Virus record (IMG/VR): IMGVR_UViG_3300003653_000051
Location: 1-59,015 of that record
Length of the DNA stretch: 59,015 nucleotides
Source of the DNA: a virus
Strand: one strand, 5' to 3'
A program made the position numbers and the translations under genes. This document shows positions 3,638 to 49,764 of this stretch, one piece after another; position 1 is the first letter of the stretch; each line of letters opens with the position of its first letter. The notes beneath the pieces were generated by a model. It was not told the origin of the DNA, did no database searches, and was given only the letters and a program-made list of their open reading frames with translations.

Positions 3638-3650
3638 AAGGATCGTGTGC

Positions 3651-3685: not shown

Positions 3686-3700
3686 CGCGCTGGGAGCACC

Positions 3701-3946: not shown

Positions 3947-4164
3947 CGCAGCTCTGTTGTGTATGTGCTGTTCCCATACCGGCCAGCGCCTACTGCATGT
4001 GGCAGGACCAGGAACTTGCCTGCACTGCTCTGGGCATTCCCCTGTATTGGGCAGGCTATCCTGGGCTATCCATGGCATGTACCCCCTGCGCCATTGCGGC
4101 GGAGCGGTTTGTTTGGGCAGAGCGGTGTGTATTCCGTCGTCTTCGTGCATGGAGTGCCAAATGA
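3943..4164 (+). CDS. Tiny four-cysteine protein, putative zinc knuckle
   Basis: 73 aa. It opens with CCVC near residue 5 and has CTPC near residue 47, then a short basic helix (RCVFRRLRAW). The organisation copies the preceding gene: CxxC, about 40 residues, CxxC, helix. ATGA overlaps on both sides place it in translational coupling with the polymerase downstream. Function unknown; nucleic-acid or polymerase binding is a guess. Confidence 0.6.
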   Translation: MTQLCCVCAVPIPASAYCMWQDQELACTALGIPLYWAGYPGLSMACTPCAIAAERFVWAERCVFRRLRAWSAK

Positions 4165-29260: not shown

Positions 29261-31288
29261 TCAGGTGGTGACCGAGATGCCGCCGGGGCCGATCTCAGAC
29301 TGGGCGACGATGGTATCAAGGGTCATGAGCATGGTGACCTTGTGCTTGATGATCCAGATGCCCTTGGCTGCGAGGGCGGGGGTGTTGGGGCTCTTGTCAT
29401 CCAGGGTGTAGCTGTCGATCCGCTGGGCCTCCGGGTTGGAGGGGGAGAGCAGGTCGTTGAAGAACGCATCCGACTCGGAGAGCAGGGAGTCCTTCAGGGT
29501 TTGACGCCCCAGCATCTTGGCCATCTGGTTGTAGCGTGCGGCCAGGGAGTCCTGAACGTAGTCCGCGAAGCGGCGGCGGTTGATGTTCGTCTCCCCCGTC
29601 GTCAGGCTGGTGGTGATGCCTGACTGGAGCAACGGGCCTACCACGCGATCCATGCGGAGGGCACAGATGCCCGCCTGCTTGAACAGGATATAGTCGTTCA
29701 TGTCCAGCGTCGGGGTGCCACGCTGGTATCCGATGATCGCGGAGAAGCTGGTGGGGACAGGCTCCGCTGCCTGCCCAGGGTTGTACTCCGGGGGCAGCTT
29801 GCTGAAGAGCGATGCGACCCAGGTGTCCATCGTCACGTCGATGACCCCATCATCCGTGGTGGTCCCATCCGAGCAAGCGACGACGATGCCCACCAGCTCT
29901 GGGATGAAGGTCCGGCATCCCGGCCAGGAGTAGATCACCCGCTCCGAGCGAACCGCACCTCCAGTACCACCGACCCCTGGAGCCGCAGAGCCCAGGACGA
30001 CGGACTTGGAGAGCGTGGTCAGCGTCGGGGAGATGATCGTGGTCCGAGACAAGCCCCGCGCGGATGCGTTGAGGCAGTGGAGCCGGGTGGCTGCCTGAAT
30101 GGTGCTGTCCTTGCGGGCGCAGATCACCACGGAGATGACGTTGGTGGGCGTGTCATCGTTGAGCAGAGCATCCAGCGCAGCCCCGTATCGGAGACGGATC
30201 AGTGCGGTGGTGGATGGGTTATCCGCATGGACGTTGGCGTCGTAGGTGAGCCCCGTGAGCGGGTGCGTTGAAGCACTGAGCCCAGAGCTCGGACCCCAGA
30301 AGGTGTCCGAACTTGCCGTCGGAACAGGGAAGGGCGTGAGATCCGTAGCAGCCGCGATGTCGCCCACACCAGGGCGGGCCAGCACCGTGTACCCAGCCAC
30401 AGTGACCCGAGCTCCAACGCCAGAGTCCGCATCCGATGCAGCGTGAACGCGGAATGCCAGGGCAGCACCCGTCCGCCAGTCCACGGTATCCGTGAAGGCC
30501 GACCCATCCTGCTTCTGGACCGTGATGATCAGGCCGAGGGCATCAACGACCGTGACACGGAGGGTGCTCGCCAGGGCGCAGTCGCCATTCTGGGTGCCCG
30601 CCGCACTGGTGAGGCTGCCCACGACCACCGCATCACCGACGACCACACCATCCGTGATGAAACTGCCCGCAGCGCGGGTGATGGTGCGGGTGACGCCGCC
30701 GACCACAGAGGCAGTGGTCCCGTCGAGCCCGACAGACTTCGGTGCCTTGCCCGTGAAGTTCACCGCCTGTGCGAGATAGGCCCTGTTGGCACCCGAGCGG
30801 AACTCGTAGCCCGCGGGGATGCTGGCACCCGAGCCAGGGACAATGGGGGTGGTGTCCGTGGCCGAGCGGTTGGTGGGAAGGTCGCGCCAGACCCGGATGG
30901 CAAACTGGGTCGCGGAGAGCGGGCGGATCAGATCCACCGGCATCACCACCAGACGGGAGAACGCCTTGTTCCGCACCTCCGCGAAGAGGTTGCCCATCTC
31001 CGCCCCGAACTTGCCGAGCTTGGAGTCCATGCCCCCGATCCGGTTGATCAGGTCAGAGCCGCCGTAGACCTCCGCAGGCCGAAGGCTGGAGACCACCTCC
31101 CCGGAGGTGTTGACCACGCAGGTCTGGCTCATGTCGCTGGCCTCCCCCACCACAGCAACCACGCCGTAGCTAGCCCCGCTGATGCCACCAGGAACCTTCT
31201 GGTCCACGATGACAACACCCTCGATGGCCGTGAGCTCGTCAGTGCCTGGGAAGTAAGAGAAGCGTCGGATGAAACCAGCACCAGCCAT
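29261..31288 (-). CDS. Tail sheath protein
   Basis: 675 aa. N-terminal segment (ELTAIEGVVIVDQKVPGGIS, GVVAVVGEASDM) and C-terminal domain (NDYILFKQAGICALRMDRV, NINRRRFADYVQDSLAARYN) match contractile sheath proteins. A variable middle (residues about 190-330) is probably the exposed domain. Strong GGAGG upstream suits high expression. Its presence shows the tail is contractile. Confidence 0.88.
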   Translation of the reverse strand: MAGAGFIRRFSYFPGTDELTAIEGVVIVDQKVPGGISGASYGVVAVVGEASDMSQTCVVNTSGEVVSSLRPAEVYGGSDLINRIGGMDSKLGKFGAEMGNLFAEVRNKAFSRLVVMPVDLIRPLSATQFAIRVWRDLPTNRSATDTTPIVPGSGASIPAGYEFRSGANRAYLAQAVNFTGKAPKSVGLDGTTASVVGGVTRTITRAAGSFITDGVVVGDAVVVGSLTSAAGTQNGDCALASTLRVTVVDALGLIITVQKQDGSAFTDTVDWRTGAALAFRVHAASDADSGVGARVTVAGYTVLARPGVGDIAAATDLTPFPVPTASSDTFWGPSSGLSASTHPLTGLTYDANVHADNPSTTALIRLRYGAALDALLNDDTPTNVISVVICARKDSTIQAATRLHCLNASARGLSRTTIISPTLTTLSKSVVLGSAAPGVGGTGGAVRSERVIYSWPGCRTFIPELVGIVVACSDGTTTDDGVIDVTMDTWVASLFSKLPPEYNPGQAAEPVPTSFSAIIGYQRGTPTLDMNDYILFKQAGICALRMDRVVGPLLQSGITTSLTTGETNINRRRFADYVQDSLAARYNQMAKMLGRQTLKDSLLSESDAFFNDLLSPSNPEAQRIDSYTLDDKSPNTPALAAKGIWIIKHKVTMLMTLDTIVAQSEIGPGGISVTT

Positions 31289-34045: not shown

Positions 34046-35443
34046 TCAGGAGTCGAAGCCGTGGGCGCACACGATGGCGCGCTTCATCCGGGCGGGGGTG
34101 CCAGTGGCCGCGTCGGTACGCATGGGCCAGTCACCGTCGAAGCGCCAGGAGGTGGCCACCATGTCCTGAAGGCGGTTGAGGGGGGCGCGCATGATCAGCT
34201 TGACACGCTCCGAGGAGATCTCGATGCCGTTGTTGTTGACCTGGACATCGCCCATCTTGCCCACCATGCCCGCCTCAGTGATGAACTGGGCCGGATCCTG
34301 GTAGTACTCGTAGATCGCACCGAAACCGCTGAAGAGCATGCGATGCACCTCCATGCCGGTCGCCGTCCCATCGCGGGTCAGCTCGGGCGCGAAGGCGTCA
34401 TCCAGGCTGAAGGTGATGCCGTCCGCGGGAGCAACGGTGAGCTTGGTCGGAACCTCGTTGTTGTCCACGAAGATCACGCCCAGCATCTTGCCGATCACGA
34501 AGTCCGTGTACATGTAGTTCTCGGGACGGCCCGTGAGCATGCGCTGGATCTCAGTGTCCGCCATGAGCGCGGCGAGGGACACCGGGCCGATGTGTGCATG
34601 GTAGCAACCAGACGGATGCATCGGGATGTTGTTCCGCCGGAGCCGCATGATGCAGTTCCTGATGTCCTGAAGCCGGGGGAGGTCCGTGACACCCAGGTCA
34701 TCCACCTTGTTGCCGCCGCCGACGTAGACGATCTCCGAACGGTCCACCGACTGAACGAAGTCACGATCACCCCAGACCGCGACCGCATCCAGGATGAGCG
34801 TTCCCGGGCCGATCTCATCGCCCGACGTGCTCGGGGTGAAGCCGACCACGTTGCGAACCGTACCCGCGATGCTGATCTGGAGCGGGTTGCTGGAGCTGAC
34901 CGCCGAGAAGCGAACACGGGAGCCGTTCGTCAGGCTGGGGTTTCGCGACTTCGTGAAGCCATTGAGGCGCTTCACGACAAGGCTGGTGGACCCACCGCCT
35001 CCCTGCGCGCCGTTGGTCACCGTGGAGCCCGACTCCGCAGCGTTGTAGAAGCGGTTGCGGACCAGACGGTTGAGGGTCTGGGCAGCCTGGAGCCCGAGCT
35101 GGTGGCTGTTCCGCAGGAGCAGATCCACGATCGCCTGCACCGAGGTGGGGATGTTCGTGTCGATCGTCCCGGCGTAGGTGTTGAGCTGGGCTTCCCACTG
35201 CTCGATCGTGTAGCTCATGGGCTCCGGGTCCGTACCAGGACGGAGCGGACGGCCACTCGGCGCGATCAGACCAGGGGCCGACGCGATGTAGGTGTCACCC
35301 ACACCGGCAGGCCACGGGGAGGCCACCACGTCTCCGCGATAGATCATCGAGGGGAAGAGGGCATCATGGAACGCACGCTCCAGGAAACCCTCCTGGACGA
35401 TGGCGCGGACTTCTGGGGTGGCGATGATGTTCGAGAAATCCAT
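34046..35443 (-). CDS. Major capsid protein, HK97 fold
   Basis: 465 aa. Opens DFSNIIATPEVRAIVQEGFL; contains YTIEQWEAQLNTYAGTIDTN, a typical capsid phrase, then LRNSHQLGLQAAQTLNRLVR (spine-like helix) and PEVPTKLTVAP-like beta later. No long N-terminal delta domain is seen and the scaffold is a separate gene, so assembly is probably scaffold-driven. Ribosome-binding site GGAGAAAGAG. Also read antisense by a long open frame, which I regard as a shadow. Confidence 0.85.
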   Translation of the reverse strand: MDFSNIIATPEVRAIVQEGFLERAFHDALFPSMIYRGDVVASPWPAGVGDTYIASAPGLIAPSGRPLRPGTDPEPMSYTIEQWEAQLNTYAGTIDTNIPTSVQAIVDLLLRNSHQLGLQAAQTLNRLVRNRFYNAAESGSTVTNGAQGGGGSTSLVVKRLNGFTKSRNPSLTNGSRVRFSAVSSSNPLQISIAGTVRNVVGFTPSTSGDEIGPGTLILDAVAVWGDRDFVQSVDRSEIVYVGGGNKVDDLGVTDLPRLQDIRNCIMRLRRNNIPMHPSGCYHAHIGPVSLAALMADTEIQRMLTGRPENYMYTDFVIGKMLGVIFVDNNEVPTKLTVAPADGITFSLDDAFAPELTRDGTATGMEVHRMLFSGFGAIYEYYQDPAQFITEAGMVGKMGDVQVNNNGIEISSERVKLIMRAPLNRLQDMVATSWRFDGDWPMRTDAATGTPARMKRAIVCAHGFDS

Positions 35444-35505: not shown

Positions 35506-36270
35506 TCACACCATGGAGGCGGGGTTCTTGTAGCCCTTCTTGCGAAGGTACTCCTGGTACTCCGCCCTGGTCATCTCATTGGCCTGCTTTGGCTGGGACA
35601 GTGCCGCACCTTCCGTGCGTACCTCGCCCGGAGGCATACTCCTTGGAGCCCCGCCTCCGGGGGTAGAGCCCACCTCCAGCTCTTCGATCTTCCGCTCCGC
35701 CTGAGCCTGGAGAACCTGCTGGAAGATCCCAGGCTTCTTGGCCCGCAGATCATCCTTCAGGTACTTGGCCGCATCGAAGCTCTTGGCATCCGTATCCGAG
35801 AGCTTGCGGTAGTGCCCGTTGAGGTGGGACAGAGCGTAGTCGATCTCCTCGCCCTGGACCCCAGCCTCGTAGGCCATCTGCCGAAGCTGACCGTCGTTCT
35901 CCAGGACGGAGATCCGACTGCGAAGACCCTGAATCGTCTTCCGAAGCGTGACGTTCTCTGCCTGGATGGCAGCATCCGCCGCACCCCTATCCAGAGGCTT
36001 GGGGGTGGGCTTGCCGCCAGGGCCCGCCTTCATCATCGCTTCCACACCCTCAAACCCGAGGGCCTGAGCGCGCTTGTTGTACGCCTCCATGACAGAGGCA
36101 CGTCCCGCATCCCGATCCGTCTTGCGCTCCTCCGACCGTGCCTTGGCATTGGCGGAGGGGAGCGGAGCACGCGGAGGTGCCTGTACGGCCCGCTCGGCAG
36201 GTTGTTCGATGTCGGTAACAACCTCGTCGATGAGGGCCTCGGTCTCGGTGAGCTCGGTTTCGTCTTGCAT
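35506..36270 (-). CDS. Scaffold protein
   Basis: 254 aa directly upstream of the capsid gene. Highly charged and helical, with a coiled coil (AIQAENVTLRKTIQGLRSRI, then SVLENDGQLRQMAYEAG) and a basic C-terminus (YQEYLRKKGYKNPASMV), which in scaffolds binds the capsid protein. Acidic, Pro-rich N-terminus. Start context GATCATG. Confidence 0.78.
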   Translation of the reverse strand: MQDETELTETEALIDEVVTDIEQPAERAVQAPPRAPLPSANAKARSEERKTDRDAGRASVMEAYNKRAQALGFEGVEAMMKAGPGGKPTPKPLDRGAADAAIQAENVTLRKTIQGLRSRISVLENDGQLRQMAYEAGVQGEEIDYALSHLNGHYRKLSDTDAKSFDAAKYLKDDLRAKKPGIFQQVLQAQAERKIEELEVGSTPGGGAPRSMPPGEVRTEGAALSQPKQANEMTRAEYQEYLRKKGYKNPASMV

Positions 36271-36796: not shown

Positions 36797-37180
36797 TCAG
36801 GCTTTCTCACCGAGAACAATGTAGACCTCAGTGTCTACGGTTGCCTCTCGGGTCAGATCAATCGCGGTGATGTTCACATCATCACACCGCAGAATCAGGA
36901 TCGGGTCAACTGGCAGGCTCTGTGTCTGGCCCTGCGAGCTAGTGATGCGTGCGCGGACATAGCCCCCCGATGCACGGATGCACAGGAAGTTCACCGCACC
37001 CAGGGTGCCCAGGCTCACCTGAACCACATTATCTGTGCTCAGGGTGAGGTTGGTGGAGAGCTGCCGCTTCAGGAACACCTGCTCGTTCAGGGTGAGCACG
37101 ATGGACGGCTCCCCCGAGGGGCTACCTACCGGGTTGGCTACCGTGATCGACCCGTCAAGCAGAAGACGTTGCTGTGCCAT
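36797..37180 (-). CDS. Hypothetical head-cluster protein
   Basis: 127 aa from ATG 37180 (ATGA overlap with the upstream gene). Beta-rich: QQRLLLDGSITVANPVG, EPSIVLTLNEQVFLKRQLST, ARITSSQGQTQSLPVDPILI. Could be a second decoration protein. Not recognised. Confidence 0.5.
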   Translation of the reverse strand: MAQQRLLLDGSITVANPVGSPSGEPSIVLTLNEQVFLKRQLSTNLTLSTDNVVQVSLGTLGAVNFLCIRASGGYVRARITSSQGQTQSLPVDPILILRCDDVNITAIDLTREATVDTEVYIVLGEKA

Positions 37181-37623
37181 CAGGTGAGCTCTCCTGCCCG
37201 CCAGAGCCATGCACCCACCAGGATGGGCTCCACTTCCGCGATCTCACCCGCCAAAGCCTGTGCGACTGCGATGGCATCCTCGGGGGCGATGCTCTTGAGC
37301 ATCTCCGGGAGGCCGTCACCCCAACCATCCACCAGCTCCAGAATCTTGTCCGCCATGTCCTCGGGAAGCTCCTGGTCATCTGCCAGGAGAATCGTGGGCT
37401 CCATCGTCTGAACCGACTCCTCGATCTGAGGAAGATGGTTCCTGGTCAGGGTCACGATGTTCTCAAGCTGCTCCGGGGACAGGGCCCCAGAGCCGCTCCC
37501 CAGAGCTTCCGCTCGGCTTGGGTCCAGCTCCTCATGGGGAACCGGATCCTCCTCGGGCCCTTGAGGGGGCTGTCCGCGAGGTGTCTGACCTCGGGACCAA
37601 GCTTGCATGTCAGGTGGTGGCAC
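37180..37623 (-). CDS. Hypothetical acidic head-cluster protein
   Basis: 147 aa from GTG 37623 (an internal ATG at 37608 is possible). Pro-rich and acidic N-terminus (GQPPQGPEEDPVPHEELD), then helices (SPEQLENIVTLTRNHL, EDMADKILELVDGW). First gene after a candidate promoter, so it may lead a head transcript. Not recognised. Confidence 0.5.
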   Translation of the reverse strand: MPPPDMQAWSRGQTPRGQPPQGPEEDPVPHEELDPSRAEALGSGSGALSPEQLENIVTLTRNHLPQIEESVQTMEPTILLADDQELPEDMADKILELVDGWGDGLPEMLKSIAPEDAIAVAQALAGEIAEVEPILVGAWLWRAGELT

Positions 37624-37938: not shown

Positions 37939-38526
37939 TCAGACCTTCGCCGCCCGAGGTGGCGGGCGAAGACCTCGGATGTGCGTCGCACCTGCCTTCA
38001 CGACACTACCAAAAGCCTTCACGGCTTCAATGGGGTGGCGGAGGGACGTGCCTGCAATCTTGGCCAGACCCGCACCGAATCGCGCCGTCTGGGCAACCTC
38101 ATGGCCTGCACTCCTAAATGCGCCAGCCACACGAGTCCCAACCGCGCTGTCGCCGTGGTGCGCTCGCATGGCAGCAGTTGCACCTTGAAGAGCAACGCCG
38201 AGTCGCTGGCGCATCGTAGTCTTCACGCCCGCTTCCGCCGCGTGCGCCTTGAATATGGCATGACCCATGCGAGCACCACCAGGGGCTGCTGCGAGTGCCC
38301 TCCCGCCCTTGTGGAGCCCATAAGCCGTAGCGGCAAGCATGGCAGCTCCGATGAGCTTGCCCTTGTGCTGCCTGAGTTTGTCGAGGACAGAGCCCTTGCG
38401 GATCATCATCCCCGAACTTCGCAGCCCCACCTTCTTCGGGTTGGCGCGGACCCACATGGTCCTCATGATGGTCTTGCCCTTGACCCTGACAGCTACCTTC
38501 TTCGCAACCAGTCCTGCTCTAGCCAT
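37939..38526 (-). CDS. Tagged array protein 9 (module plus hydrophobic helix)
   Basis: 195 aa. Residues 1-28 form the shared module (ARAGLVAKKVAVRVKGKT, then MRTMWVRANPKK). A hydrophobic helix follows near residue 55 (KGKLIGAAMLAATAYGLHKG). The rest is Ala/Gly/Arg-rich and helical (MRQRLGVALQGATAAMRAHH). The first 78 bases of the gene match those of the gene ending at 40066 with 4 differences, so the module was copied recently. Strongly basic overall. Proposed virion-internal, membrane-active protein. Confidence 0.7.
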   Translation of the reverse strand: MARAGLVAKKVAVRVKGKTIMRTMWVRANPKKVGLRSSGMMIRKGSVLDKLRQHKGKLIGAAMLAATAYGLHKGGRALAAAPGGARMGHAIFKAHAAEAGVKTTMRQRLGVALQGATAAMRAHHGDSAVGTRVAGAFRSAGHEVAQTARFGAGLAKIAGTSLRHPIEAVKAFGSVVKAGATHIRGLRPPPRAAKV

Positions 38527-38528
38527 AA

Positions 38529-39350
38529 TCAGCTCACATTCCTGCGGTTCAGTAGCCCGCGCCGAGCGAAGAGTCGATCAAACTCTTTGGCGATGGGTGC
38601 GAAGTCCTTGTCGTCCCACTGCGCGTGCATGTTACCGAGCTGTCGCCACTGGTCCCCAAACGCTTTGGTGTCGTGCTGAACAGCGCCCCCCGCATGGTGG
38701 CCCACCCACTGTGCGTAGCTTCGGGCGAATAGCTCCGCAGGCATCAGAAGGTACTCCGCGCTCCGCTTGGCGTTGGGCCAGTCGTTCTTGATTGCGGCTT
38801 CATGCCGCCCCATGAGCTGCTTGGCTGCATCACTTTTATAGATGGCGGTCATCAGCCCCTTGAGCTCCTTGGAGCGGCGCATGGTGCCCATGCCCCTCAG
38901 ACCGTCCTGTCCCGACACCCCCCCAGCCCCGAATAGGTTGTGATCCAGGAAGTGCCCATACTCGTGCGCGGCGATACCCGCATGTCCCTTGGCCCACTTG
39001 GAGACTTTGATCTCAGGATCGCGGAGCATGTACATGCCCCCTGCCCCGCCGAGGGAGCCTGTGACATTCATCTTGATCTTGAGCAGATCCTTCGGGACGG
39101 TGTGGACCTGCCCGATGGCATGGACCGCAGCATCAACCCCGTGGTTGGCGGTCTTGGAGAAGATCATCCCGTAGCTAACGGAGATCCTCTCCTTGGGGTG
39201 GATTCCAGGGTTCACAACCCGCTGCTTCTTCTCCACACCCGAGCTGATACGGATGGGCTCCTGGTCCTTCACCCAGTAGGTACGGCGTGTGTCCCCCTTG
39301 GGGCCGTGCGCCATGAGCACCTTGCGATGAAGACCAGGGTGGCCGCTCAT
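38529..39350 (-). CDS. Tagged array protein 8: zinc metalloprotease, LPD1-like
   Basis: 273 aa from ATG 39350 (ATGA overlap). Residues 1-32 are a variant of the shared module (GLHRKVLMAHGPKGDTRRTY, then WVKDQE). The catalytic HExxH reads AAHEYGHFLDH near residue 125. The later phrase AEYLLMPAELFARSYAQWV resembles LPD1, a zincin-like domain of polyvalent proteins that plasmids and phages carry into recipients with DNA. It is the only protease I see among the head genes, so capsid maturation or tag cleavage is also possible. Confidence 0.7.
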   Translation of the reverse strand: MSGHPGLHRKVLMAHGPKGDTRRTYWVKDQEPIRISSGVEKKQRVVNPGIHPKERISVSYGMIFSKTANHGVDAAVHAIGQVHTVPKDLLKIKMNVTGSLGGAGGMYMLRDPEIKVSKWAKGHAGIAAHEYGHFLDHNLFGAGGVSGQDGLRGMGTMRRSKELKGLMTAIYKSDAAKQLMGRHEAAIKNDWPNAKRSAEYLLMPAELFARSYAQWVGHHAGGAVQHDTKAFGDQWRQLGNMHAQWDDKDFAPIAKEFDRLFARRGLLNRRNVS

Positions 39351-40063
39351 CGCTGCAACCGTTCTTGCGCCCATTGGGCTGCGCGGATGATGTGCTTCTC
39401 CGTGTGACGACCTGCGAGGTATCCCCCTGCGTGTCCGCCCAGGAAGCCTCCGACGCCCGCACCCACACCGCCACCTGCCAGCCCGCCGATAGCGGTGCCC
39501 GCTACCGTGCCGAAGTGGGAGCCGATGTGGTGTGCAGCGGCTTCGCCGCCAACCTTGGTCATGTGGCCAGCCAGATCCGCCCCGATCCCACGGCGGTATG
39601 CCGTGACCGCCGCACGCGCTCCCGCTGTCCTGGTCGAAAGGGACTCACGGGCGGATGCAAACTTGGCCCTGGCAGCAGTGGCTCCATCGCCTAGATGACC
39701 GCGGACCTCCGCTCCGGTTAGATCCCGCTTCTTGTTGTGGTAGCCAGAGCTCGCACCGCCCAGTGCTGCCTTCAAGCGGTCCTTGAGGCCTTCGCCCTGG
39801 TGTAATCCATGCGCTGCGGAGGCACCTCGGAAAGCTCCGGCGATTCCATGCCCGTGCTTGTGCGCGATGTACGCGCCACCAACCAGAGCAGCTGCACCCA
39901 GAATCTTCCCGGCGTGTCTACGGAGGAAGCCTGGGCCCTTCTCTGGGCCCGCGGAGCGTAGGCCCTTCACCGTCGGGTTTGTCTTGACCCAATAGGTTCG
40001 CTTGACCGTGCCACGCTTCCCGCGGACGGTTTTGACGACCTTCTTTAGCCCAGCCCGCGCCAT
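39347..40063 (-). CDS. Tagged array protein 7
   Basis: 238 aa, start context GATCATG. Shared module in its fullest form at residues 1-30 (ARAGLKKVVKTVRGKRGTVK, then RTYWVKTNP). Hydrophobic helix near residue 53 (AGKILGAAALVGGAYIAHKH). The C-terminal third is a long Gly/Ala stretch (GTVAGTAIGGLAGGGVGAGV) like glycine-zipper membrane segments. Basic and helical between. Function unknown; membrane insertion likely. Confidence 0.7.
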   Translation of the reverse strand: MARAGLKKVVKTVRGKRGTVKRTYWVKTNPTVKGLRSAGPEKGPGFLRRHAGKILGAAALVGGAYIAHKHGHGIAGAFRGASAAHGLHQGEGLKDRLKAALGGASSGYHNKKRDLTGAEVRGHLGDGATAARAKFASARESLSTRTAGARAAVTAYRRGIGADLAGHMTKVGGEAAAHHIGSHFGTVAGTAIGGLAGGGVGAGVGGFLGGHAGGYLAGRHTEKHIIRAAQWAQERLQR

Positions 40064-40065
40064 GA

Positions 40066-40488
40066 TCAGCGAGGCTCCTTACTCAGCGCCATCTGTTGTC
40101 TAGTGCCCCTGTATATTCCGTGTGCTGCTGCTGCTACGCCAACCGCTGCGGCTGCTAGACCAAACTGGGCCTTATGGTCTGCGCTCATCTTGCTATCCGC
40201 CAGGTGCCGCCCCAATAGGTGTCCAGCGGTAAGCCCGACGGCACCCCCGCCTACGACGTGTGCAACACCCCCCTTGCCGATGTGAGAGCCTGCGGCAATC
40301 CCAGTACCTGCCCCCATAATCTTCATACCAATGCGAAGAAGATGCGCAGCATCCTTGTTGACCTTTTCATTATGAAGGCCCTGCATCCCGAGCTTCTTGG
40401 GGGTAGCCCTGACCCACATGGTCCTCATGATGGTCTTGCCCTTGACCCTGACAGCAACCTTCTTGGCTACCAATCCTGCTCTAGCCAT
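40066..40488 (-). CDS. Tagged array protein 6
   Basis: 140 aa from ATG 40488; a TTG at 40494 is rejected because the paralogue at 38526 starts at the same MARAGL. The first 28 residues are almost identical to those of that paralogue, but the remainder differs. Hydrophobic glycine-rich segment (IMGAGTGIAAGSHIGKGGVA, then GGGAVGLTAGHLLG) and a second one (FGLAAAAVGVAAAAHGIYRG). Supports module shuffling. Confidence 0.7.
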   Translation of the reverse strand: MARAGLVAKKVAVRVKGKTIMRTMWVRATPKKLGMQGLHNEKVNKDAAHLLRIGMKIMGAGTGIAAGSHIGKGGVAHVVGGGAVGLTAGHLLGRHLADSKMSADHKAQFGLAAAAVGVAAAAHGIYRGTRQQMALSKEPR

Positions 40489-40503
40489 GATCAATTCACC
40501 TTC

Positions 40504-41154
40504 CTACTCATCATCATCTTCCGCACCAAATCGCTTGCGAGCCCGCTTGATTGCACCACGGGCGAGGGCATTCCCGATGATTGCACCTACGGCGGAGCGG
40601 CCCGTTCGGCTGGCCGTGCTGCCTTTGCCTCTCATACCCAAAGCGGCTCCGGCAAGTGTTCCTGCGTGTTCGGCAAGTTCCATGGCTACCTTGGACCTGA
40701 CCACATGCCCTGCCGCAGTGCTGGCAGTTCTCACCAGGAACTCGGCTGTCTTGGCCCTAGCCTTCTCTGTGCCCAGATGCTTGTGGTACGCCTTCGCAGT
40801 GTTGGTCCTGAGCGTTCCAGGCCCGCCCTTCCTCGCTGCCAAATCCCAGCCGCCCTTGGCACCGCGCGTTGCAGCACGGAACTGTTCCAAGAGCGAGCGG
40901 GAGCCCCCCTTCTCAAGGTGCTCGCCCAACCTCTGCTTGGCACCCTGATGTGCCCAGGTCAGTGCCTTCCGATTCCCATACGCCAACCCCGCTACCGTAG
41001 CGGCCACCACAGCCGCTCCGATGAGCTTCTTCTTGTGGCGGGACGCGAAGCCGGTCGTAGCCTCCTGGGATCGCACCCAATAGGACCGGCGGACCTGCCC
41101 GTGCTTTCCGCGGACAGACTTGGTGATCTTCTTCAGCCCTGCGTGCCCAGGCAC
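40504..41154 (-). CDS. Tagged array protein 5
   Basis: 216 aa. Module HAGLKKITKSVRGKHGQVRR, then SYWVRSQE; hydrophobic helix near residue 45 (KKLIGAAVVAATVAGLAYGN). The middle is basic and helical (QRLGEHLEKGGSRSLLEQFR); a later segment (MELAEHAGTLAGAALGMRGK) may also enter membranes. Acidic tail EDDDE. Unknown function. Confidence 0.7.
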   Translation of the reverse strand: MPGHAGLKKITKSVRGKHGQVRRSYWVRSQEATTGFASRHKKKLIGAAVVAATVAGLAYGNRKALTWAHQGAKQRLGEHLEKGGSRSLLEQFRAATRGAKGGWDLAARKGGPGTLRTNTAKAYHKHLGTEKARAKTAEFLVRTASTAAGHVVRSKVAMELAEHAGTLAGAALGMRGKGSTASRTGRSAVGAIIGNALARGAIKRARKRFGAEDDDE

Positions 41155-41157
41155 TTC

Positions 41158-41559
41158 CTACCTCCGTGCATCCGACAGAGCCTTCACCGCATGGAACATC
41201 CGACCCACATCAATGGCGTGTGCCACGACATGGGAGGCCGTGGCGAGGTTCCGGGCAGCGAGCTTGGTCATCTTGGCCCCGACGTTGTACCCAACCTCCT
41301 GGCCAATCTTTGCTCCGGCAACCCGCCCAGCAGTATGCCCTGCGGCATACCCAAAGAGCCTGCCCACCGTACCCGCCTTGTGCTTCCCTATGGCAGCACC
41401 CGCATGGGCTCCGACGAGACTGCCCAGAGATCGCCCAAGATGATCGCCGCCCTTGGCCAGCAGATCCGCGCCCGTAGCCCGGACCCAATAGGAACGGAGG
41501 TAGGTGCCACGCTTGCCGCGCACCTTCACCTGCTTCTTCGTGAGTCCAGGTCGCGACAT
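41158..41559 (-). CDS. Tagged array protein 4
   Basis: 133 aa from ATG 41559. Module SRPGLTKKQVKVRGKRGTYL, then RSYWVRATG. Body rich in Gly/Ala/His (GRSLGSLVGAHAGAAIGKHK, LFGYAAGHTAGRVAGAKIGQ) with glycine-zipper spacing. Starts one base upstream of the end of the next-upstream gene. Basic. Confidence 0.7.
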   Translation of the reverse strand: MSRPGLTKKQVKVRGKRGTYLRSYWVRATGADLLAKGGDHLGRSLGSLVGAHAGAAIGKHKAGTVGRLFGYAAGHTAGRVAGAKIGQEVGYNVGAKMTKLAARNLATASHVVAHAIDVGRMFHAVKALSDARR

Positions 41560-41560
41560 A

Positions 41561-42208
41561 TTAGAAGAGGAGGGGCTTCCTACGGATCTGCGTACCATCA
41601 TAGGGTGCGTTCTGTTGTGTCCGAATAGCGTGTGCGTCTGGCATCACACTCGGCCTCGCCGCGATGACCTCCTGCCTGCGTATCGCATTCCTGTGCCCCT
41701 GCATCTCGGCCTGGTATTCCTTCATGACATCATGAGGACTCATTGAGTGGAGTCCGCGGACGTTTGAGTTGGCAGACCCGCTCTGGGTTCGATTGCCGTT
41801 GCGGGATGCAGTGCCCGTACCCGGAGCCATGGCACGCCCGATGGACCTGCCTGCGATGGCACCGCTGATAGCGCCAGTGACCGCGCCGAATACGGCACCC
41901 ATCGTACCTACCCGCGCGGTGTTGTAGCCGATGAGGACAGCTTTACCCGCCGTCGGCACTACACGCGCGGCACCTGAGTCCCGGATCAGACCGTGTGCGG
42001 CATGCCCCCCTGCAACGGCACCCGCAGTGCCGAAAGTGGTTGCACCCGCCACAGCGCCGAACAGAGCACCGGCCAGGGCACCACGACGACCGTACTTGGT
42101 CTTCTTGGCACCTGCATCCTCTGACTTCACCATCACAGAACGCTGGTAGGTCTTGCCGCCCTTGCCACGGACGGTCTTCTTGACCTTGCGTAGATTTGAT
42201 TTAGCCAT
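41561..42208 (-). CDS. Tagged array protein 3
   Basis: 215 aa. Module variant NLRKVKKTVRGKGGKTYQRS, then VMVKSED, in which VMV replaces YWV. Long hydrophobic glycine-rich region (RGALAGALFGAVAGATTFGT, VGTMGAVFGAVTGAISGAIA) that could span membranes. The C-terminus is polar (MSPHDVMKEYQAEMQGHRN). Shares its module with the adjacent gene at 42607. Confidence 0.7.
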   Translation of the reverse strand: MAKSNLRKVKKTVRGKGGKTYQRSVMVKSEDAGAKKTKYGRRGALAGALFGAVAGATTFGTAGAVAGGHAAHGLIRDSGAARVVPTAGKAVLIGYNTARVGTMGAVFGAVTGAISGAIAGRSIGRAMAPGTGTASRNGNRTQSGSANSNVRGLHSMSPHDVMKEYQAEMQGHRNAIRRQEVIAARPSVMPDAHAIRTQQNAPYDGTQIRRKPLLF

Positions 42209-42223
42209 GATGTGCCATCCTAC

Positions 42224-42607
42224 CTAGCGCATGACATGCGGCTTGATCTTGTTGTCCCGCATGTATGCATCGTAGTCGTGGCTCATATTAGGCTTGATCT
42301 TGTTGATCCGCATGTACGCATCGTGCGGGTGCTCGTGTGCGGCGGGCGCGCTGCTGCGAGATGCAGTGCCAGAACCCAGATGCTTGTGCGCCATGTACGC
42401 TGCCGCTGCCGTCAGGGCGGTAGCTGCGAGGATCCTCCCCCCGTGCCGCCCAAGGATGCCGTGGGTGGTAGATCCTTCCGACTTCAGAGCCCTCTTGGTC
42501 TTCTTGGAGCCCGCATCCGCAGACTTCACCATCACGGAGCGTTGGTAGGTCTTGCCACCCTTACCACGGACGGTCTTCTTGACCTTGTGTAAGCTGTGCT
42601 TGGCCAT
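42224..42607 (-). CDS. Tagged array protein 2
   Basis: 127 aa. Module SLHKVKKTVRGKGGKTYQRS, then VMVKSAD, nearly the same as in the next gene. Hydrophobic helix near residue 60 (GRILAATALTAAAAYMAHKH). The tail carries an imperfect 15-residue repeat (DAYMRINKIKP, DAYMRDNKIKP). Small and basic. Confidence 0.7.
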   Translation of the reverse strand: MAKHSLHKVKKTVRGKGGKTYQRSVMVKSADAGSKKTKRALKSEGSTTHGILGRHGGRILAATALTAAAAYMAHKHLGSGTASRSSAPAAHEHPHDAYMRINKIKPNMSHDYDAYMRDNKIKPHVMR

Positions 42608-42622
42608 GTGCGTGCCCCACGC

Positions 42623-43135
42623 CTAGCGCATGGCGCGCTGGTCGCGGTGAAGCTCGTCAACGACCGTGCGACCCTTTGGCCCGCCCAGCGATTCCGGGTT
42701 CGGCGAGCGCAGATCCTCGCGGATCCTGTCTGCGATGTGCCCCAACTTGGCACCGACCTTGGCATCCCCGATGGCGTGACCGATGCGCGCACGCAAGCCG
42801 ATGTGTGCGTCCGTGGCCCCCGCAGCCCGCGCCAGCCTGTTGAATGCCCCCGAGACCTTCATTGAGCCGTGCGCGGCCAGAGCAGCGCCCACGATCTTCC
42901 CGGCGTTCTTGTGCGCGTAGTGTCCGCCCTTCGCCAGCGCCGCAGCCGCAACGACCGCCCCAGCGATCTTCGCGCCGCGCTTGAGGCCGACCTCGTGCGC
43001 CCTGGCGAACTTCCCGACGCGCTTGCCAGCGCCCTTCACGGCGGCAGTGGCGCGCACCCAGTAGCTGCGCTTCACCATCCCGTGCTTGCCCTTGACCGTC
43101 TTCTGGACCTTCTTCAGACCTGCATGCGACCCCAT
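42623..43135 (-). CDS. Tagged array protein 1
   Basis: 170 aa, first of the array in transcription order; start context GATCATG. Module HAGLKKVQKTVKGKHGMVKR, then SYWVRATA. Hydrophobic region near residues 55-80 (KIAGAVVAAAALAKGGHYAH). Tail basic (REDLRSPNPESLGG). Function unknown; see the array finding. Confidence 0.7.
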   Translation of the reverse strand: MGSHAGLKKVQKTVKGKHGMVKRSYWVRATAAVKGAGKRVGKFARAHEVGLKRGAKIAGAVVAAAALAKGGHYAHKNAGKIVGAALAAHGSMKVSGAFNRLARAAGATDAHIGLRARIGHAIGDAKVGAKLGHIADRIREDLRSPNPESLGGPKGRTVVDELHRDQRAMR

Positions 43136-43228: not shown

Positions 43229-43513
43229 TCAGATGATGCGTTCCATATCCTCAGACTGTGCATCCATGAGGAGCTGTGCCCTTTGCTTCCGGGTCTCCTG
43301 CCAGGATCGCAGCCCCAGGAGCCTGTTCCAGATGCAGTACCAGAGCATCCAGAGCGCCAGACGGAGTGCCAGACCCTCGGATAGATGGGCACGGACGACA
43401 CAGGATGCTGGGTCGCGGGGGGCGGAGAAGAAGAGCTCCACCATCCCCCGTGATGGGATCGCCGCTACCTCCAGGTAGCCGTCGGTCTTTCGGAAGATGG
43501 AATGGTGGATCAT
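43229..43513 (-). CDS. Hypothetical membrane-associated protein
   Basis: 94 aa, ATGA overlap with the methyltransferase. A hydrophobic stretch near residue 50 (LALRLALWMLWYCIWNRLLG) is a likely membrane segment, followed by a basic, helical tail. The N-terminus is beta-like (GYLEVAAIPSRGMVELFFSA). Not recognised. Confidence 0.6.
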   Translation of the reverse strand: MIHHSIFRKTDGYLEVAAIPSRGMVELFFSAPRDPASCVVRAHLSEGLALRLALWMLWYCIWNRLLGLRSWQETRKQRAQLLMDAQSEDMERII

Positions 43514-44424
43514 CGGACGATGCCCTGACCCCGTAGTGCCTTCAGGATGGCCGTCTCTGTGGAGTTCTTTCCCTCGATGGCGGCATCCTGCCAGCGCGCT
43601 CCGATCTCCTCAGAGGCGGGGTAGTTCATCCAGAGAACCTCGGTGGCTGTTGTGCTGCCCTCTCGGGCGGTTGTGGTGATGGCGCGATCGAAGCTCACAC
43701 GTCTCCAGCTCTGATAGAGCCTGTCGTAAAGTACACCACCATAGCCCGACACCATGATCCGTGCCCCCGCTCCTGCGGCGGTGTGATTAGCCTGTGCCAG
43801 TGTCTCGTGCTGGTCTGTAGTCATCTCGTGCTGATACCCCTCGTTGACTACCCGAGATTCCGCATGATAGGGCGGGTCCTCGTAGATGAACGCATGGAGA
43901 TGCTGGTACTGCTGGATCATGTGTATGGCATCCTGATTATACATGCAGACACCCAACATTCTGTCTGCATACTGTTGGAACTGCCGGAGTCGGGATTCTG
44001 ACCCTGCTGCATGGGAGGCACCCGGTATGGGGCGACGCCAACCCACCGTGGGGGTTTGCATCCCGCTGAAGCTCTGTCTGGAGCGAACCCAAACCCTCCG
44101 GGCTACCTCCAGCTCATCCTCGAAGTTGTCCTCCGAGAACCGCTTGCAGACTTGGTGCTCTTCAAGCGCATAGGGTGTGAGCTCACAAACCCGGATCAGC
44201 TCATCCGTTCTTGTTTGGAGAACCCGGTAGAAGGTGATGATGCCCTTGTTCAGGTCGTTGATTACCTGGACATGGAAAAGCTCCTTGGGCACCTGGAAGA
44301 ACACACCGCCTCCCCCAAAGAAGGGCTCCACATAGAGTGTTGGACCCTTGGGAAAGTGGGGGATGATGTGCCGTGCAATCAGCTTCTTACCGCCAAAGTA
44401 ATGAAGCGGCCCATCCAAACTCAT
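43510..44424 (-). CDS. Dam-type adenine-N6 DNA methyltransferase (D12 class), copy 2
   Basis: 304 aa. YFGGKKLIARHI (SAM-site start), EPFFGGGGVFF, VINDLN and the catalytic EDPPYHAES (DPPY) are in the order of D12 enzymes such as Dam, which methylate adenine, commonly in GATC. Very similar to the neighbouring copy over its whole length, with differences mostly in the middle target-recognition part. Leader sequence also shared. Late location suggests action on replicated DNA before packaging. Confidence 0.85.
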   Translation of the reverse strand: MSLDGPLHYFGGKKLIARHIIPHFPKGPTLYVEPFFGGGGVFFQVPKELFHVQVINDLNKGIITFYRVLQTRTDELIRVCELTPYALEEHQVCKRFSEDNFEDELEVARRVWVRSRQSFSGMQTPTVGWRRPIPGASHAAGSESRLRQFQQYADRMLGVCMYNQDAIHMIQQYQHLHAFIYEDPPYHAESRVVNEGYQHEMTTDQHETLAQANHTAAGAGARIMVSGYGGVLYDRLYQSWRRVSFDRAITTTAREGSTTATEVLWMNYPASEEIGARWQDAAIEGKNSTETAILKALRGQGIVR

Positions 44425-44468: not shown

Positions 44469-45386
44469 TCATCGGACGATGCCCCGCCCGCGTAGTGCCT
44501 TCAGGATGCCCTTCTCCGCGGCGCTCTTCCCCTTGGGCGTGGAGCTCTGCCAGTGGGCTCCAATCTCCTCAGAAGCTGGGTAGTTCATCCAGAGCACCTC
44601 GGTCTTGAGAACCTGCCCATCTTTCGGGTTGGTTATCATGTTGTATCGTGTGAACTCCGTCCGCCTCCAGTTCTTGTATGTCTGATCGTAGAAGGCTCCG
44701 CCATAGCCTGAGATCATGATCTTGGCCCCCAACTTAGTAGCAGCTTCGTTGGCATCAAACAGACCCAGATGCTGGGCTTCTGTCATCTCGTACTGGTAAC
44801 CACCAGACGAACTGCGAGATTCTATGTGGTAGGGTGGGTCTTCGTAGATGAACGCACCGGGCTTGGCGTACCTGGACACGAGCTGTGTGGCGTCTTCACA
44901 GTCAATGTGTACACTACGGAAGCGCGCAGCATAATCTCGTAGGTGGCGTAGTTGCACCTCTGTAGAATCACTCTGCGTGTGATTTACACCTACACGCCTC
45001 CAACTCACAGTCTCAGTCTGGTCACCTCCGAAACTCTGCCTTGCCCTGACCCAGACTCTCCTCGCCACCTCCAGTTCGTCCTCTGGGTTGTCCTCCGAGA
45101 ACCTCTTACATGCCCGATGCTCTTCGAGCGCGTAGGGTGTGAGTTCGCAAACCCGGATCAGCTCATCTACCCGCGTCCTTAGAACCCGGTAAAACGTGAC
45201 AATGCTCTTGTTCAGGTCGTTGATTACCTGGACATGGAAAAGCTCCTTGGGCATCTGGAAGAACACACCGCCACCCCCGAAGAAGGGCTCCACATAGAGC
45301 GTGGCACCCTTCGGGAAGTGGGGAATGATGTGCTGTGCGGTGGTCTTCTTGCCGCCGTAGTATGGGAGTGGCCCATCTAAACTCAT
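44469..45386 (-). CDS. Dam-type adenine-N6 DNA methyltransferase (D12 class), copy 1
   Basis: 305 aa from ATG 45386, in the same context as its paralogue (AGGAAG then GGATCATGAG); upstream in-frame ATGs lie in the previous gene. Motifs YYGGKKTTAQHI, EPFFGGGGVFF, VINDLN, EDPPYHIES. Same ends as copy 2 (ASEEIGAHWQ, ILKALRGRGIVR). Tandem duplication with divergence in the recognition region suggests either two target sites or redundancy. Confidence 0.85.
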   Translation of the reverse strand: MSLDGPLPYYGGKKTTAQHIIPHFPKGATLYVEPFFGGGGVFFQMPKELFHVQVINDLNKSIVTFYRVLRTRVDELIRVCELTPYALEEHRACKRFSEDNPEDELEVARRVWVRARQSFGGDQTETVSWRRVGVNHTQSDSTEVQLRHLRDYAARFRSVHIDCEDATQLVSRYAKPGAFIYEDPPYHIESRSSSGGYQYEMTEAQHLGLFDANEAATKLGAKIMISGYGGAFYDQTYKNWRRTEFTRYNMITNPKDGQVLKTEVLWMNYPASEEIGAHWQSSTPKGKSAAEKGILKALRGRGIVR

Positions 45387-45411
45387 GATCCGTCGTCCCT
45401 CTTCCTGCTGA

Positions 45412-46347
45412 TCAGACCGAGCGTTTACGCCCCGCGCCAGCGCCCTTGGCCTTGCGACCCGCGGCTGTTTTGTCGCTCTGGTAGAATGTGCCACCACCAA
45501 CCTTGGTGTAGTAGCCCCCGCCTTTCGTCTTCTTGGTCAGTTTGGCCTCATCCCGCCCGTAGGAATGATCTCTGGTGGCCTTCTGGCGTGCGTCATGTTC
45601 GGCATTTCGCTTCGCCGCACCCTCGGGGCTCTGTGCCTTCATGGTGGCACGGATGGCCTTCTGGCGATCCTGGACGCCCTTGGTCTTGACGGTCTCTACC
45701 GCCTTCTTGATGTTCGCCAGCTTCTGCGCCTCCGCTACCCTGGCAGTGCTGGTGTGCCCTGCCACTTCCCGGAGGCGGCGGATTCGATCAACGTGTGCTG
45801 CCTCCCTCTGTCCCTGGCGATGCTCGTGGATCGCCTTGTCCTGGGTGATCCGGCTATGGGCACGCTCCTGGCCCTTGCTCTCGTGCCTCCGTGTCAGCTC
45901 CCCCGTTGCCCCCGCATGGATGGCAGCATGGTCGTGACCCCCGTACCTCTCCGCGTGGTGGGCCACCTCCCGCAGTTCGTTGTGGGACATGTGAGCTACT
46001 TCAGGATCACCACGGCGTACCTTGGCTACGTTCGTGAAAATCCGCTGGTCATTCTTCAGGTTGCTCATGTGGGACGCCAGGGCATGACCCGCGAAGGTCA
46101 TGAGCGTCCCCATGATGAAGTTCCCGCGTCGGAAGTTCCGGCTGGTGGCGGAGCCCAGCCACTTGCTGATGCCCGTACCTACGGAGTGCCGCGCCGAGGC
46201 CCGTCCTGCATCCGAATGGATGTAGTCACGCACGCTGGGCATGTTCCCGTGCAGCGCGTGGTAGTCGGCGCGATTGGTCTGGGCGTAGGCTTTCGCCCCC
46301 GTCGCAAGGTGCGTGGCCGTGCTGAGATGATCACCGAAAACGCCCAT
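45412..46347 (-). CDS. Basic His-rich protein, possible internal virion protein
   Basis: 311 aa. Has a hydrophobic helix near residue 80 (GNFIMGTLMTFAGHALASHM), a His/Arg/Glu-rich helical middle (HAERYGGHDHAAIHAGATGE) and a Lys/Gly-rich tail (TAAGRKAKGAGAGRKRS). Lacks the N-terminal module of the array, but its composition is similar. Might be another packaged protein. Not recognised. Confidence 0.6.
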   Translation of the reverse strand: MGVFGDHLSTATHLATGAKAYAQTNRADYHALHGNMPSVRDYIHSDAGRASARHSVGTGISKWLGSATSRNFRRGNFIMGTLMTFAGHALASHMSNLKNDQRIFTNVAKVRRGDPEVAHMSHNELREVAHHAERYGGHDHAAIHAGATGELTRRHESKGQERAHSRITQDKAIHEHRQGQREAAHVDRIRRLREVAGHTSTARVAEAQKLANIKKAVETVKTKGVQDRQKAIRATMKAQSPEGAAKRNAEHDARQKATRDHSYGRDEAKLTKKTKGGGYYTKVGGGTFYQSDKTAAGRKAKGAGAGRKRSV

Positions 46348-47264: not shown

Positions 47265-47828
47265 ATGCGGATCATCGGGTTGGACATCGCCTTCTGTAAT
47301 CTGGGTGTGGTGTCCTGTCATCTGTTGGGCGGTGTGCTTACTCTGACGGGAGCGGAGGCCATCTACACTGGCAAGGGCAAGGAGGGGCTGTCGGACACAG
47401 CGGACAACCTACGGCGGTCCCAGCTTCTCCATGCACGTCTCAAGGAGGTGATGGAGAGGACGGAGCCGCAGGTGGTGGTGGTGGAGTCTCAGAGCTGGCC
47501 GAGGATCAACCCTGCCAGCTCGATCAAGATGGCCCATGCCTGGGGAGCGATCAGCCCTCTTCTGGTTGGGCTTCCTCTTCTGGAGGTGACGCCACAGGCG
47601 CTGAAGCTGTTTGTGGCGGGGGACCGCTCGGCAACGAAGCTCCAGGTTCACCAGGGGGTGCTTCGTCGGATGGCAGAGCCTCTTCAGACCCAGCAACTTG
47701 TGGACTGGGGCGTCCTGAAGCGGGCTCGCCAGGAGCATTGTTGGGACGCCCTGGGGGCTGTCCTAGCGGTCCTCCCTTCCCAGGAGTTCCAGGCGCTTCT
47801 GCGCCTCCATCTCCCGCCATCGCTTTAG
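47265..47828 (+). CDS. RuvC-like Holliday-junction resolvase
   Basis: 187 aa from ATG 47265 (GGAGGT upstream). RuvC acids are in place: GLDIAFCNLGV (residues 5-15), VVVESQSW near 70 and HCWDALGAVLA near 163. Such enzymes cut branched DNA before packaging. It is a lone rightward gene in a leftward cluster, and its last 278 bases are antisense to the portal gene; the catalytic HCWDA lies in that overlap, so both frames must be kept. Confidence 0.78.
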   Translation: MRIIGLDIAFCNLGVVSCHLLGGVLTLTGAEAIYTGKGKEGLSDTADNLRRSQLLHARLKEVMERTEPQVVVVESQSWPRINPASSIKMAHAWGAISPLLVGLPLLEVTPQALKLFVAGDRSATKLQVHQGVLRRMAEPLQTQQLVDWGVLKRARQEHCWDALGAVLAVLPSQEFQALLRLHLPPSL

Positions 47829-49764
47829 CCGCCATGGCTGGCGAGCTGATCGCGGCGTTCGCCACGAAGAGCTCCGCGAACTTCGCCCTGTACTGGATCA
47901 TCGTCAGGTCGCCATCCGGGAGGGCACCCAGCCCCAGGGCTCCCATGCGGTACTCGTTCAGGGTCACAATCCCCGCATCCAACCCCGCCTTCCATGCAGC
48001 CGGAGTCATGCTTGGCCCCGTCTTCGGTGCAGACGGACTCGGTGCAGCTCCAGTATCCTCGGCGGCGGGATCGGCACCCTCATCCGCTCCTGGATCTTCT
48101 CCTTCGGCAGCAGGCTCCGCACCTGGATCTGCTCCGGCATCCTCGGGGGTTGCTGCCGCATCTGCCTGAGCTGCCAGATTCGCCTCTTCCTGCTTCTTGA
48201 GATCGTGCATCTCCTTCAGCGGGTCCATGCTGACATAGGGGGCGTAGAACTTGATGGCGGTGGCCTTGGTCATCACCTCCGCATCCTTGGCGGTGGTGCA
48301 GATCCGAAGGGCGGTTTCTACATCGGACAGTGTGGGGCGGAAGTACGGGGGCCACTTCACCTCGCAGATCGTGCCCTTCCCCATGTCACGGGGGACCTCC
48401 AGCGTATCCCCATCCGGTTGCTGCACCACCTTCGGGGGTGTGTAGACCTTCCCCCGCACAAACCGAGTCGTGCCATCTGGGCCGGGAACCTCCCGGATCG
48501 CCGTCCACATCCTCACCGCTTGAAGCAGCTTCTGGCAGAGGCGGATGATCATGGGGCCATACTGCTCCCGCAGATCGTCCGCCCGCTCCAGCATGGAGGA
48601 GTAAACCCGCTCGATCTCCAGGGCTGTCTTCTCCCCAGAGTTCTGAAAGAGCACCTGATCCGGGACGCACTGGGCCAGACGGTACGCCCGATCCTCCAGC
48701 TCCTTCGCGACCGTGATCCCCAGGGTTGGGCCGGAGCCTGCCAGCTCCAGGTAGGAGGCGCTGCTGCCGATGGGGATTTTCAGTGCGTTGTCGGAGCCCT
48801 TGGCGAGCGTGCCCAGGGATGCGTCGGTGGTGAGGACCAGGGTGGGGTCCAGGTTCTTGATGGTCCCGGAGTAAACCTCCGTCATCAGGTTGTCGATTGC
48901 CTGGACCATCTCGTAGATGCCCGCACAGTCCGGCTCCCCATCCATATCCGCCCCCTCGGAGATGTTCTGGACCCACTCGTAGGGGACGAAGCCCAGGCCG
49001 TGACGGACCACGTTCTTCTGGATGTAGTCCCAGGCCGGTGCCTTCTGCTTGCACTTCACGGGCACCCAGACCGTATCCGTCTCCGTGTCGATCACCCTGC
49101 GATACCAGTACCAGATGGGCTTCCAGTTTCCCTCCAGGTCCTTCTCCTCCTTGACGTAGGTGTACTCAATCGTCAGGCGCTGAAGATCCTGGGAGCCCTT
49201 CCCCATGAACTCCGCCGTGGCCCAGCGCGGGTCCAACGCCTCAAACTGACAGCGCCCCTGGACGAACTTGAACCCGGTGCAGCCCGATCCCATGCCGCCG
49301 CCGTAGTTCCGGGTCTGGATCATGGCAGACCAGAACTGCCCGAAGACTAGCTGTGCGTTGAGCCAGTCCTCCGTGTCCTCATCCCCAGGAACACCCACCC
49401 TGGGCTGCTTCCGGTTGGAGAAGAGTAGCCCAGTGAACCGGCTCACGATGTTCCGAACAATCCCGTAGGGGGCTACAGGTCTGCGGAACTCTCTGGGTAG
49501 GCCGTCCCCTACCACCGCGTAGCCCGGGGGGAGGTAGCCGTTGCGGGAGATGCCGTCCCTGGCAGGCCCAGACATGACGGCCCTACCCTCCCAATCCACG
49601 CCCTTGCCCATGTGCTCCTGGACCTTGAAGAAGCTCCAGCGTGTGTTGAGCTCCATCTGACGTGCCGTGAGCTTCAGGTGCTTGCCCCCTGTCGCAGCGG
49701 TGTCGTTGTCGCCCAGCGCAGACATGGCCCCACCAGAATCTGATGGGTCTCGTTGAATCGGCAT
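47551..49764 (-). CDS. Portal protein with disordered C-terminal tail
   Basis: 737 aa. Portal features: RNIVSRFTGLLFSNRKQPRV, YEMVQAIDNLMTEVYSGTIK, and the helix SGEKTALEIERVYSSMLERA near residue 380. The last 200 residues are Ala/Pro/Glu/Gly-rich and low in complexity, except a 70-residue island (PAAWKAGLDAGIVTLNEYRM) that recalls C-terminal crown helices. The final tail is antisense to the resolvase gene. Portal forms the DNA channel. ATG 49764 is used; an internal ATG at 49725 is possible. Confidence 0.85.
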   Translation of the reverse strand: MPIQRDPSDSGGAMSALGDNDTAATGGKHLKLTARQMELNTRWSFFKVQEHMGKGVDWEGRAVMSGPARDGISRNGYLPPGYAVVGDGLPREFRRPVAPYGIVRNIVSRFTGLLFSNRKQPRVGVPGDEDTEDWLNAQLVFGQFWSAMIQTRNYGGGMGSGCTGFKFVQGRCQFEALDPRWATAEFMGKGSQDLQRLTIEYTYVKEEKDLEGNWKPIWYWYRRVIDTETDTVWVPVKCKQKAPAWDYIQKNVVRHGLGFVPYEWVQNISEGADMDGEPDCAGIYEMVQAIDNLMTEVYSGTIKNLDPTLVLTTDASLGTLAKGSDNALKIPIGSSASYLELAGSGPTLGITVAKELEDRAYRLAQCVPDQVLFQNSGEKTALEIERVYSSMLERADDLREQYGPMIIRLCQKLLQAVRMWTAIREVPGPDGTTRFVRGKVYTPPKVVQQPDGDTLEVPRDMGKGTICEVKWPPYFRPTLSDVETALRICTTAKDAEVMTKATAIKFYAPYVSMDPLKEMHDLKKQEEANLAAQADAAATPEDAGADPGAEPAAEGEDPGADEGADPAAEDTGAAPSPSAPKTGPSMTPAAWKAGLDAGIVTLNEYRMGALGLGALPDGDLTMIQYRAKFAELFVANAAISSPAMAAKAMAGDGGAEAPGTPGKGGPLGQPPGRPNNAPGEPASGRPSPQVAGSEEALPSDEAPPGEPGASLPSGPPPQTASAPVASPPEEEAQPEEG

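Follow-up and report, generated by a model that had tools for sequence, protein, structure and literature searches.

The window analyzed is the whole 59,015-nt virus contig of IMG/VR record IMGVR_UViG_3300003653_000051 (positions 1 to 59,015), in which nine consecutive ORFs, termed p1-p9, occupy positions 37939-43135 on the (-) strand (Table 1). The intergenic gaps are only -28 to 15 nt, so p1-p9 probably form one operon. The array sits between the portal and major capsid genes and each ORF opens with an N-terminal module of 26-30 residues, here called the tag, which bears out the original prediction of nine leftward genes sharing one module inside the head gene region. The start of p6 is corrected from 41601 to 41559, judged by its tag, and the p2 tag is degenerate and begins at an internal Met of the ORF. 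The first 73 amino acids of p3 used as a query recover all nine genes and nothing else in the 59-kb record, with E values between 3e-13 and 6e-4 for seven other array genes and of 0.045 for p7. Four array genes, and zero shuffled sequences, match a strict DNA pattern of the YWV form.

Table 1. Coordinates of the array genes and of neighboring features in the window.
Feature	Coordinates	Strand	Length	Description
Tail sheath	29261..31288	(-)		Weak match (8.6e-4); sister-phage ortholog 66% identical
Major capsid protein	34046..35443	(-)		Downstream of array
Predicted scaffolding protein	35506..36270	(-)		Predicted from position and composition only; kept immediately upstream of capsid gene
Acidic protein	37180..37623	(-)	147 aa	Strongly acidic, pI 4.1, charge -22; conserved beside array
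p1	37939..38526	(-)	195 aa	Tag 38437-38526; basic body
p2	38529..39374	(-)	281 aa	Degenerate tag about 39261-39350; zincin-like metallopeptidase body
p3	39347..40063	(-)	238 aa	Tag 39974-40063; basic helical glycine-zipper body
p4	40066..40488	(-)	140 aa	Tag MARAGLVAKKVAVRVKGKTIMRTMWVRATP at 40399-40488
p5	40504..41154	(-)	216 aa	GTG start; tag 41062-41154; basic body
p6	41158..41559	(-)	133 aa	Tag MSRPGLTKKQVKVRGKRGTYLRSYWVRATG at 41470-41559; glycine-zipper body
p7	41561..42208	(-)	215 aa	Tag 42116-42208; glycine-zipper body
p8	42224..42607	(-)	127 aa	Tag MAKHSLHKVKKTVRGKGGKTYQRSVMVKSAD at 42515-42607
p9	42623..43135	(-)	170 aa	Tag MGSHAGLKKVQKTVKGKHGMVKRSYWVRATA at 43043-43135; basic Ala-rich body
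Dam-type DNA methyltransferase	43510-44424			First of tandem pair
Dam-type DNA methyltransferase	44469-45500			Second of tandem pair
Basic His-rich protein	45412..46347	(-)	311 aa	No family match, no tag; syntenic, partly conserved ortholog in sister phage
Portal protein	47551..49764	(-)		phrog_145, 1.2e-10; upstream of array

The array module is confidently predicted to fold as a small β-hairpin. In the AlphaFold model of p3 the two strands span residues 6-15 and 18-27 with a pLDDT of about 96 at the center, and the structure outside the hairpin is a low-confidence helix. At the DNA level p1 resembles p4 over 123 nt (87% identity) and p7 resembles p8 over 115 nt (83% identity); in both pairs the similarity is confined to the tag and drops to background level across the bodies, indicating that the tag has been shuffled between bodies. 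The bodies of p1 and p3 are similar to each other (38% over 107 residues), and this pair aside, pairwise comparison of the window bodies gives no significant similarity. As read from these alignments, the array appears to be an expansion in which the tag, a putative address, is copied more than the protein that carries it.

All nine proteins are basic, with pI values of 10.1-12.0 and net charges of +17 to +31, and contain zero Cys residues. The bodies had been described as basic and often glycine-zipper-like; the first property extends to all nine and the second is confined to p3, p4, p6, and p7, the only members in which GxxxGxxxG repeats rise above shuffled expectation. The hydrophobic helix K-[IL]-x-G-A-A, claimed to follow the module in most members, is clear in p1, p3, p5, p8, and p9 (about five of the nine), only a loose fit in p4, and either missing or of another form in p2, p6, and p7. 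Scanning p1-p9 in 19-residue windows detects no transmembrane segment at the usual threshold (maximum Kyte-Doolittle value 1.54), and the low hydrophobicity together with the limitation of the zippers to some members makes the proposed membrane activity doubtful. Matches of p3 and p6 to tape-measure and Gly-zipper families are set aside as apparently composition-driven. The p2 body carries a zincin-like motif, HEYGHFLDH, and weakly matches a minor head/pilot family, although its structure model is poor (mean pLDDT 36); this enzymatic motif lies inside the portal-capsid module, the arrangement expected of head-packaged enzymatic effectors. Searched against viral contigs, p3 alone has no relatives and the zincin pair recovers the sister phage only.

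The source virus is an uncultured contractile-tailed phage, as identified by its tail sheath gene, and its terminase gene lies on the opposite strand from the portal, capsid, and array genes. The 147-residue acidic protein encoded beside the array is a candidate partner of the array proteins. The 311-residue basic protein is possibly a further internal head protein; it shows no similarity to MuF. Two tandem Dam-type methyltransferase genes adjoin the array in the window, and one such gene is present at the matching site of the sister phage.

The sister phage (IMGVR_UViG_3300042520_001624) is about 50% identical to the window phage, is syntenic with it across most of the genome, and carries a similar array. 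Of its nine tags, eight belong to the array and the ninth immediately follows the capsid gene. The core head and tail proteins of the two phages are mostly 45-70% identical, and the only array bodies with sister-phage orthologs are p2 (48%) and p3 (52%). In 43 further loci whose capsid genes are related, the portal-capsid interval encodes a minor head protein of MuF-like type, and an HMM of this MuF cluster gives no relevant match in the window or the sister phage, both of which bear the array. No prohead protease is recognized between the portal and capsid genes of the window phage, whereas contig G053 and Lysinibacillus phage LysYB2, considered below, do encode a protease near portal and capsid.

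A profile search of phage genomes, suggested alongside the original prediction, finds the hairpin on varied bodies, mostly beside portal and capsid genes. In related phages some of the genes adjoining MuF open with a similar hairpin (KEVERAGTTFKQRYWVK and alike) followed by a DRAT-type ADP-ribosyltransferase (ART), and the wider tag profile takes the form GLxxVxKxVxRxGxTxxQxYWV. A profile of 15 tags run against 50 related records recovers extra copies outside the training set at E values of 1e-9 to 5e-5, which precede ARTs, zincins, and a GNAT acetyltransferase. Other tagged bodies contain PARP domains (2.6e-14, 1e-10, and 2.4e-5), a zeta toxin kinase (2.7e-29), and, in Thermus Lalka phages, a DarB-like methyltransferase/helicase antirestriction protein; some of the domain calls on tagged bodies combine weak Pfam scores with motifs read by eye. 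In the records with related capsids, about 28 of 31 tag copies fall between the portal and capsid genes, a count that is taken from profile positions and gene matches and includes contig G037 on the assumption that it is circular. Outside the interval are two copies in contig G030 and a single copy in contig G001, where it immediately follows the capsid gene. The tag is absent from 40 of the 50 records with related portal and capsid, showing that it is optional.

A pattern scan of viral contigs identifies G053, which carries a tandem run of four tagged genes (PARP, zeta toxin, unknown, and PARP). A portal-protease-scaffold-capsid module lies directly downstream of this run, and its portal and capsid share 57-59% identity with their LysYB2 counterparts. 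Against 50,697 phage records the consensus tag is significant only in the Lysinibacillus phages LysYB1/2 and the Thermus phages phiMa, Cumys, and Lalka. The LysYB1/2 protein has its tag at residue 6 and a PARP C terminus, and its gene directly precedes the portal gene; the tagged gene of phiMa and Cumys directly follows the portal and minor head genes. In phiMa a small HELGH metallopeptidase-like protein is encoded right after the tagged protein (L165, 9595-10020).

Several further arrangements were observed in the contigs. Eight of them (L141, L144, L148, L150, L153, L154, L158, and L160) contain a recurring pair of large hairpin-tagged proteins, read by eye as a MoxR-like AAA ATPase and a VWA-like partner, the ATPase-like member having no Pfam match. 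Nearby opposite-strand ORFs of 297-362 amino acids in this group carry a weaker related motif, VRKVRRDGVAQRYWV, and one of these contigs has a neck gene and a methyltransferase gene near the tagged pair. Contig L032 encodes a protein with two tandem N-terminal hairpins (2816-3739) and, as its neighbor, a protein whose single hairpin precedes a very basic Ala/Lys/Arg body (4466-4876). In L084 two proteins of the portal-capsid interval (1214-2206 and 3426-4241) share another N-terminal motif, W.EELHPR...GKFA.K, which is possibly a second type of address tag. An intein-like insertion interrupts the MuF-like gene of L025 (4682-6598), and the terminase frame of L162 looks similar.

The wider profile scores 32-42 bits on real matches in related loci, some of which were used in building it, and no more than 10.3 bits on shuffled, reversed, and column-shuffled controls. 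A first HMMER cross-test, which set the window and sister-phage tags against the tags found in related phages, is weak, and the link from the window to the wider family rests on an external model. This model was built from the tags of unrelated phages only; applied to the window and sister phage translated in all six frames, it gives its top eleven places to array proteins, at E values of 2.8e-4 to 1.3. The module could have belonged mainly to non-phage proteins, but the tag has no match in a limited sample of 590 bacterial genomes of two phyla at a threshold of 1e-5, nor in a limited sample of plasmids at 0.1. Searches of Pfam, NCBIfam, PHROGs, and PDB sequences return only isolated weak matches, the best of them at 0.0058 for one member, and the window-type tag has no match in cultured phages. 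The tag is short, so single matches are credible only with positional context, and the first tag alignment was too diverse for a pattern search. Three matches of the strict tag pattern in genome contigs are discounted as chance occurrences in short frames; KQRYWVK alone matches mostly in short or non-N-terminal frames; and weak tblastn matches in phiV10-like phages (E 3-8) are rejected, the phiV10 match being at the C-terminal end of a structural protein.

In T4, the internal proteins and Alt share a short N-terminal capsid-targeting sequence (CTS) by which they, as well as foreign proteins fused to it, are directed into the prohead (PMC9958956, PMC5694885). The likeness to the array is that a short N-terminal sequence is common to several otherwise different proteins of the head locus, and in both systems an ADP-ribosyltransferase is among the carriers. 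The T4 CTS differs in being about 10-20 residues long, with a length of 10 residues given for the internal proteins (PMC9958956), and in being removed by the gp21 protease, whereas the array tag is a 26-residue predicted β-hairpin. The parallel with T4 drawn originally is kept as one of function only. In phage P1 DarB is packaged, and its N-terminal 10-30 residues suffice to load a reporter into the heads, although the authors found no common signal among the Dar proteins (PMC9024508). The tag resembles this leader as an N-terminal loading stretch and is unrelated to it in sequence, the profile giving no match to P1 DarB, residues 1-30 included, even at an E value of 100. In the DarB homologue of the Lalka phages, conservation of the body sets in at the position corresponding to P1 residue 33, which places the hairpin, located in the preceding leader, within the stretch that stands in for the known targeting sequence; it begins at residue 88 and not at the extreme N terminus.

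Enzymes whose genes adjoin those of portal and terminase, ARTs among them, are predicted to be head-packaged and injected (PMC9503650, PMC5512222, PMC5576092). The tagged proteins are similar to these MuF polymorphic toxins and polyvalent proteins in being effector enzymes encoded at this site, but there a large MuF or portal domain is fused to the effector, whereas here a 26-residue hairpin heads separate proteins that are often encoded beside an intact MuF. In phiKZ and SPN3US, too, internal or ejection proteins form enlarged paralogous families, with member counts that vary from phage to phage (PMC5694885); these proteins differ in having propeptides of over 100 residues that are cut by a prohead protease and belong to the Pfam 12699 family, and no PF12699-type domain is matched in the array proteins in Pfam searches up to an E value of 1. 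By analogy, the best reading is of a hairpin tag, absent from Pfam, NCBIfam, PHROGs, and PDB, that would work like the T4 CTS and the P1 DarB leader.

Since the hairpin is also found at the start of enzyme-like proteins encoded next to head genes in unrelated phages, it is probably an N-terminal cargo address that loads proteins into the phage head for exit with the DNA into the host. The hairpin would bind a conserved procapsid component, such as the portal, the scaffold, or the inner capsid surface, the tag-bearing proteins would be enclosed in the head during assembly, and they would then leave it with the DNA and enter the host. In the window phage the tag has been duplicated and shuffled onto nine bodies, of which the zincin-like metallopeptidase p2 is likely an injected effector, and the other eight, strongly basic and Gly/Ala-rich, would probably accompany the packaged DNA as internal or ejection proteins. 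Most relatives with related portal and capsid lack the tag, so its receptor is probably a general head component for which cargo is optional. The capsid-loading part of the original prediction thus gains strong indirect support from the occurrence of the tag on effector enzymes encoded next to head genes in several groups of phages, the lack of bacterial and plasmid matches, and the recovery of the array by an independent model, and its membrane-active part remains weak.

The absence, from both phages with expanded arrays, of the MuF-like gene present in the 43 related loci is what would be expected if the nine were instead structural minor-head or neck proteins, permanent parts of the virion that replace the missing MuF and dock onto the portal or vertex through the hairpin. 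SPP1 gp7, a MuF protein, is portal-bound and reportedly DNA-binding (PMC5576092 and references therein), consistent with such a role. This alternative is unlikely, as the tag elsewhere is carried by ART, PARP, zeta kinase, GNAT, and DarB enzymes and coexists with intact MuF, and divergence and turnover of the array bodies far outpace those of structural genes. Lower still is the probability that the nine are late proteins acting in the producing cell, in host takeover, superinfection exclusion, or membrane damage, where the hairpin would bind a complex of host or phage origin and the genes merely ride the head operon. The glycine-zipper bodies of p3, p4, p6, and p7 and the two G030 tags lying outside the portal-capsid interval fit that possibility, but the head-operon position is consistent across unrelated phages, the DarB-like and ART bodies have relatives that are packaged or predicted to be packaged, and strong transmembrane segments are absent. 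That the hairpin is a small nucleic-acid-binding element tethering the proteins to DNA with passive packaging, as the basic module and very basic bodies might suggest, is very improbable because the most constant tag positions are aromatic or hydrophobic (YWV) and the module precedes ordinary enzymes.

To our knowledge, the way in which a phage chooses its head-borne proteins is known in detail for very few phages (T4 and P1), and the signals are hard to recognize in other genomes. As a head-loading address the hairpin may extend to a transferable code used across unrelated phage families, including the myovirus lineage of the window, Herelleviridae-like phages, Thermus phages, and others, a generalization for and against which the balance is even. 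The tag is present in cultured phages (Lysinibacillus LysYB1/2 and Thermus phiMa, Cumys, and Lalka) and the proposal is hence testable at once. The array would illustrate how a cargo set expands by copying the address and not the protein. If the proposal is true, the hairpin would provide a sequence handle for injected effectors in uncultured phages and would amount to a signal peptide for virion cargo, by which packaged and injected effectors could be recognized from sequence alone.
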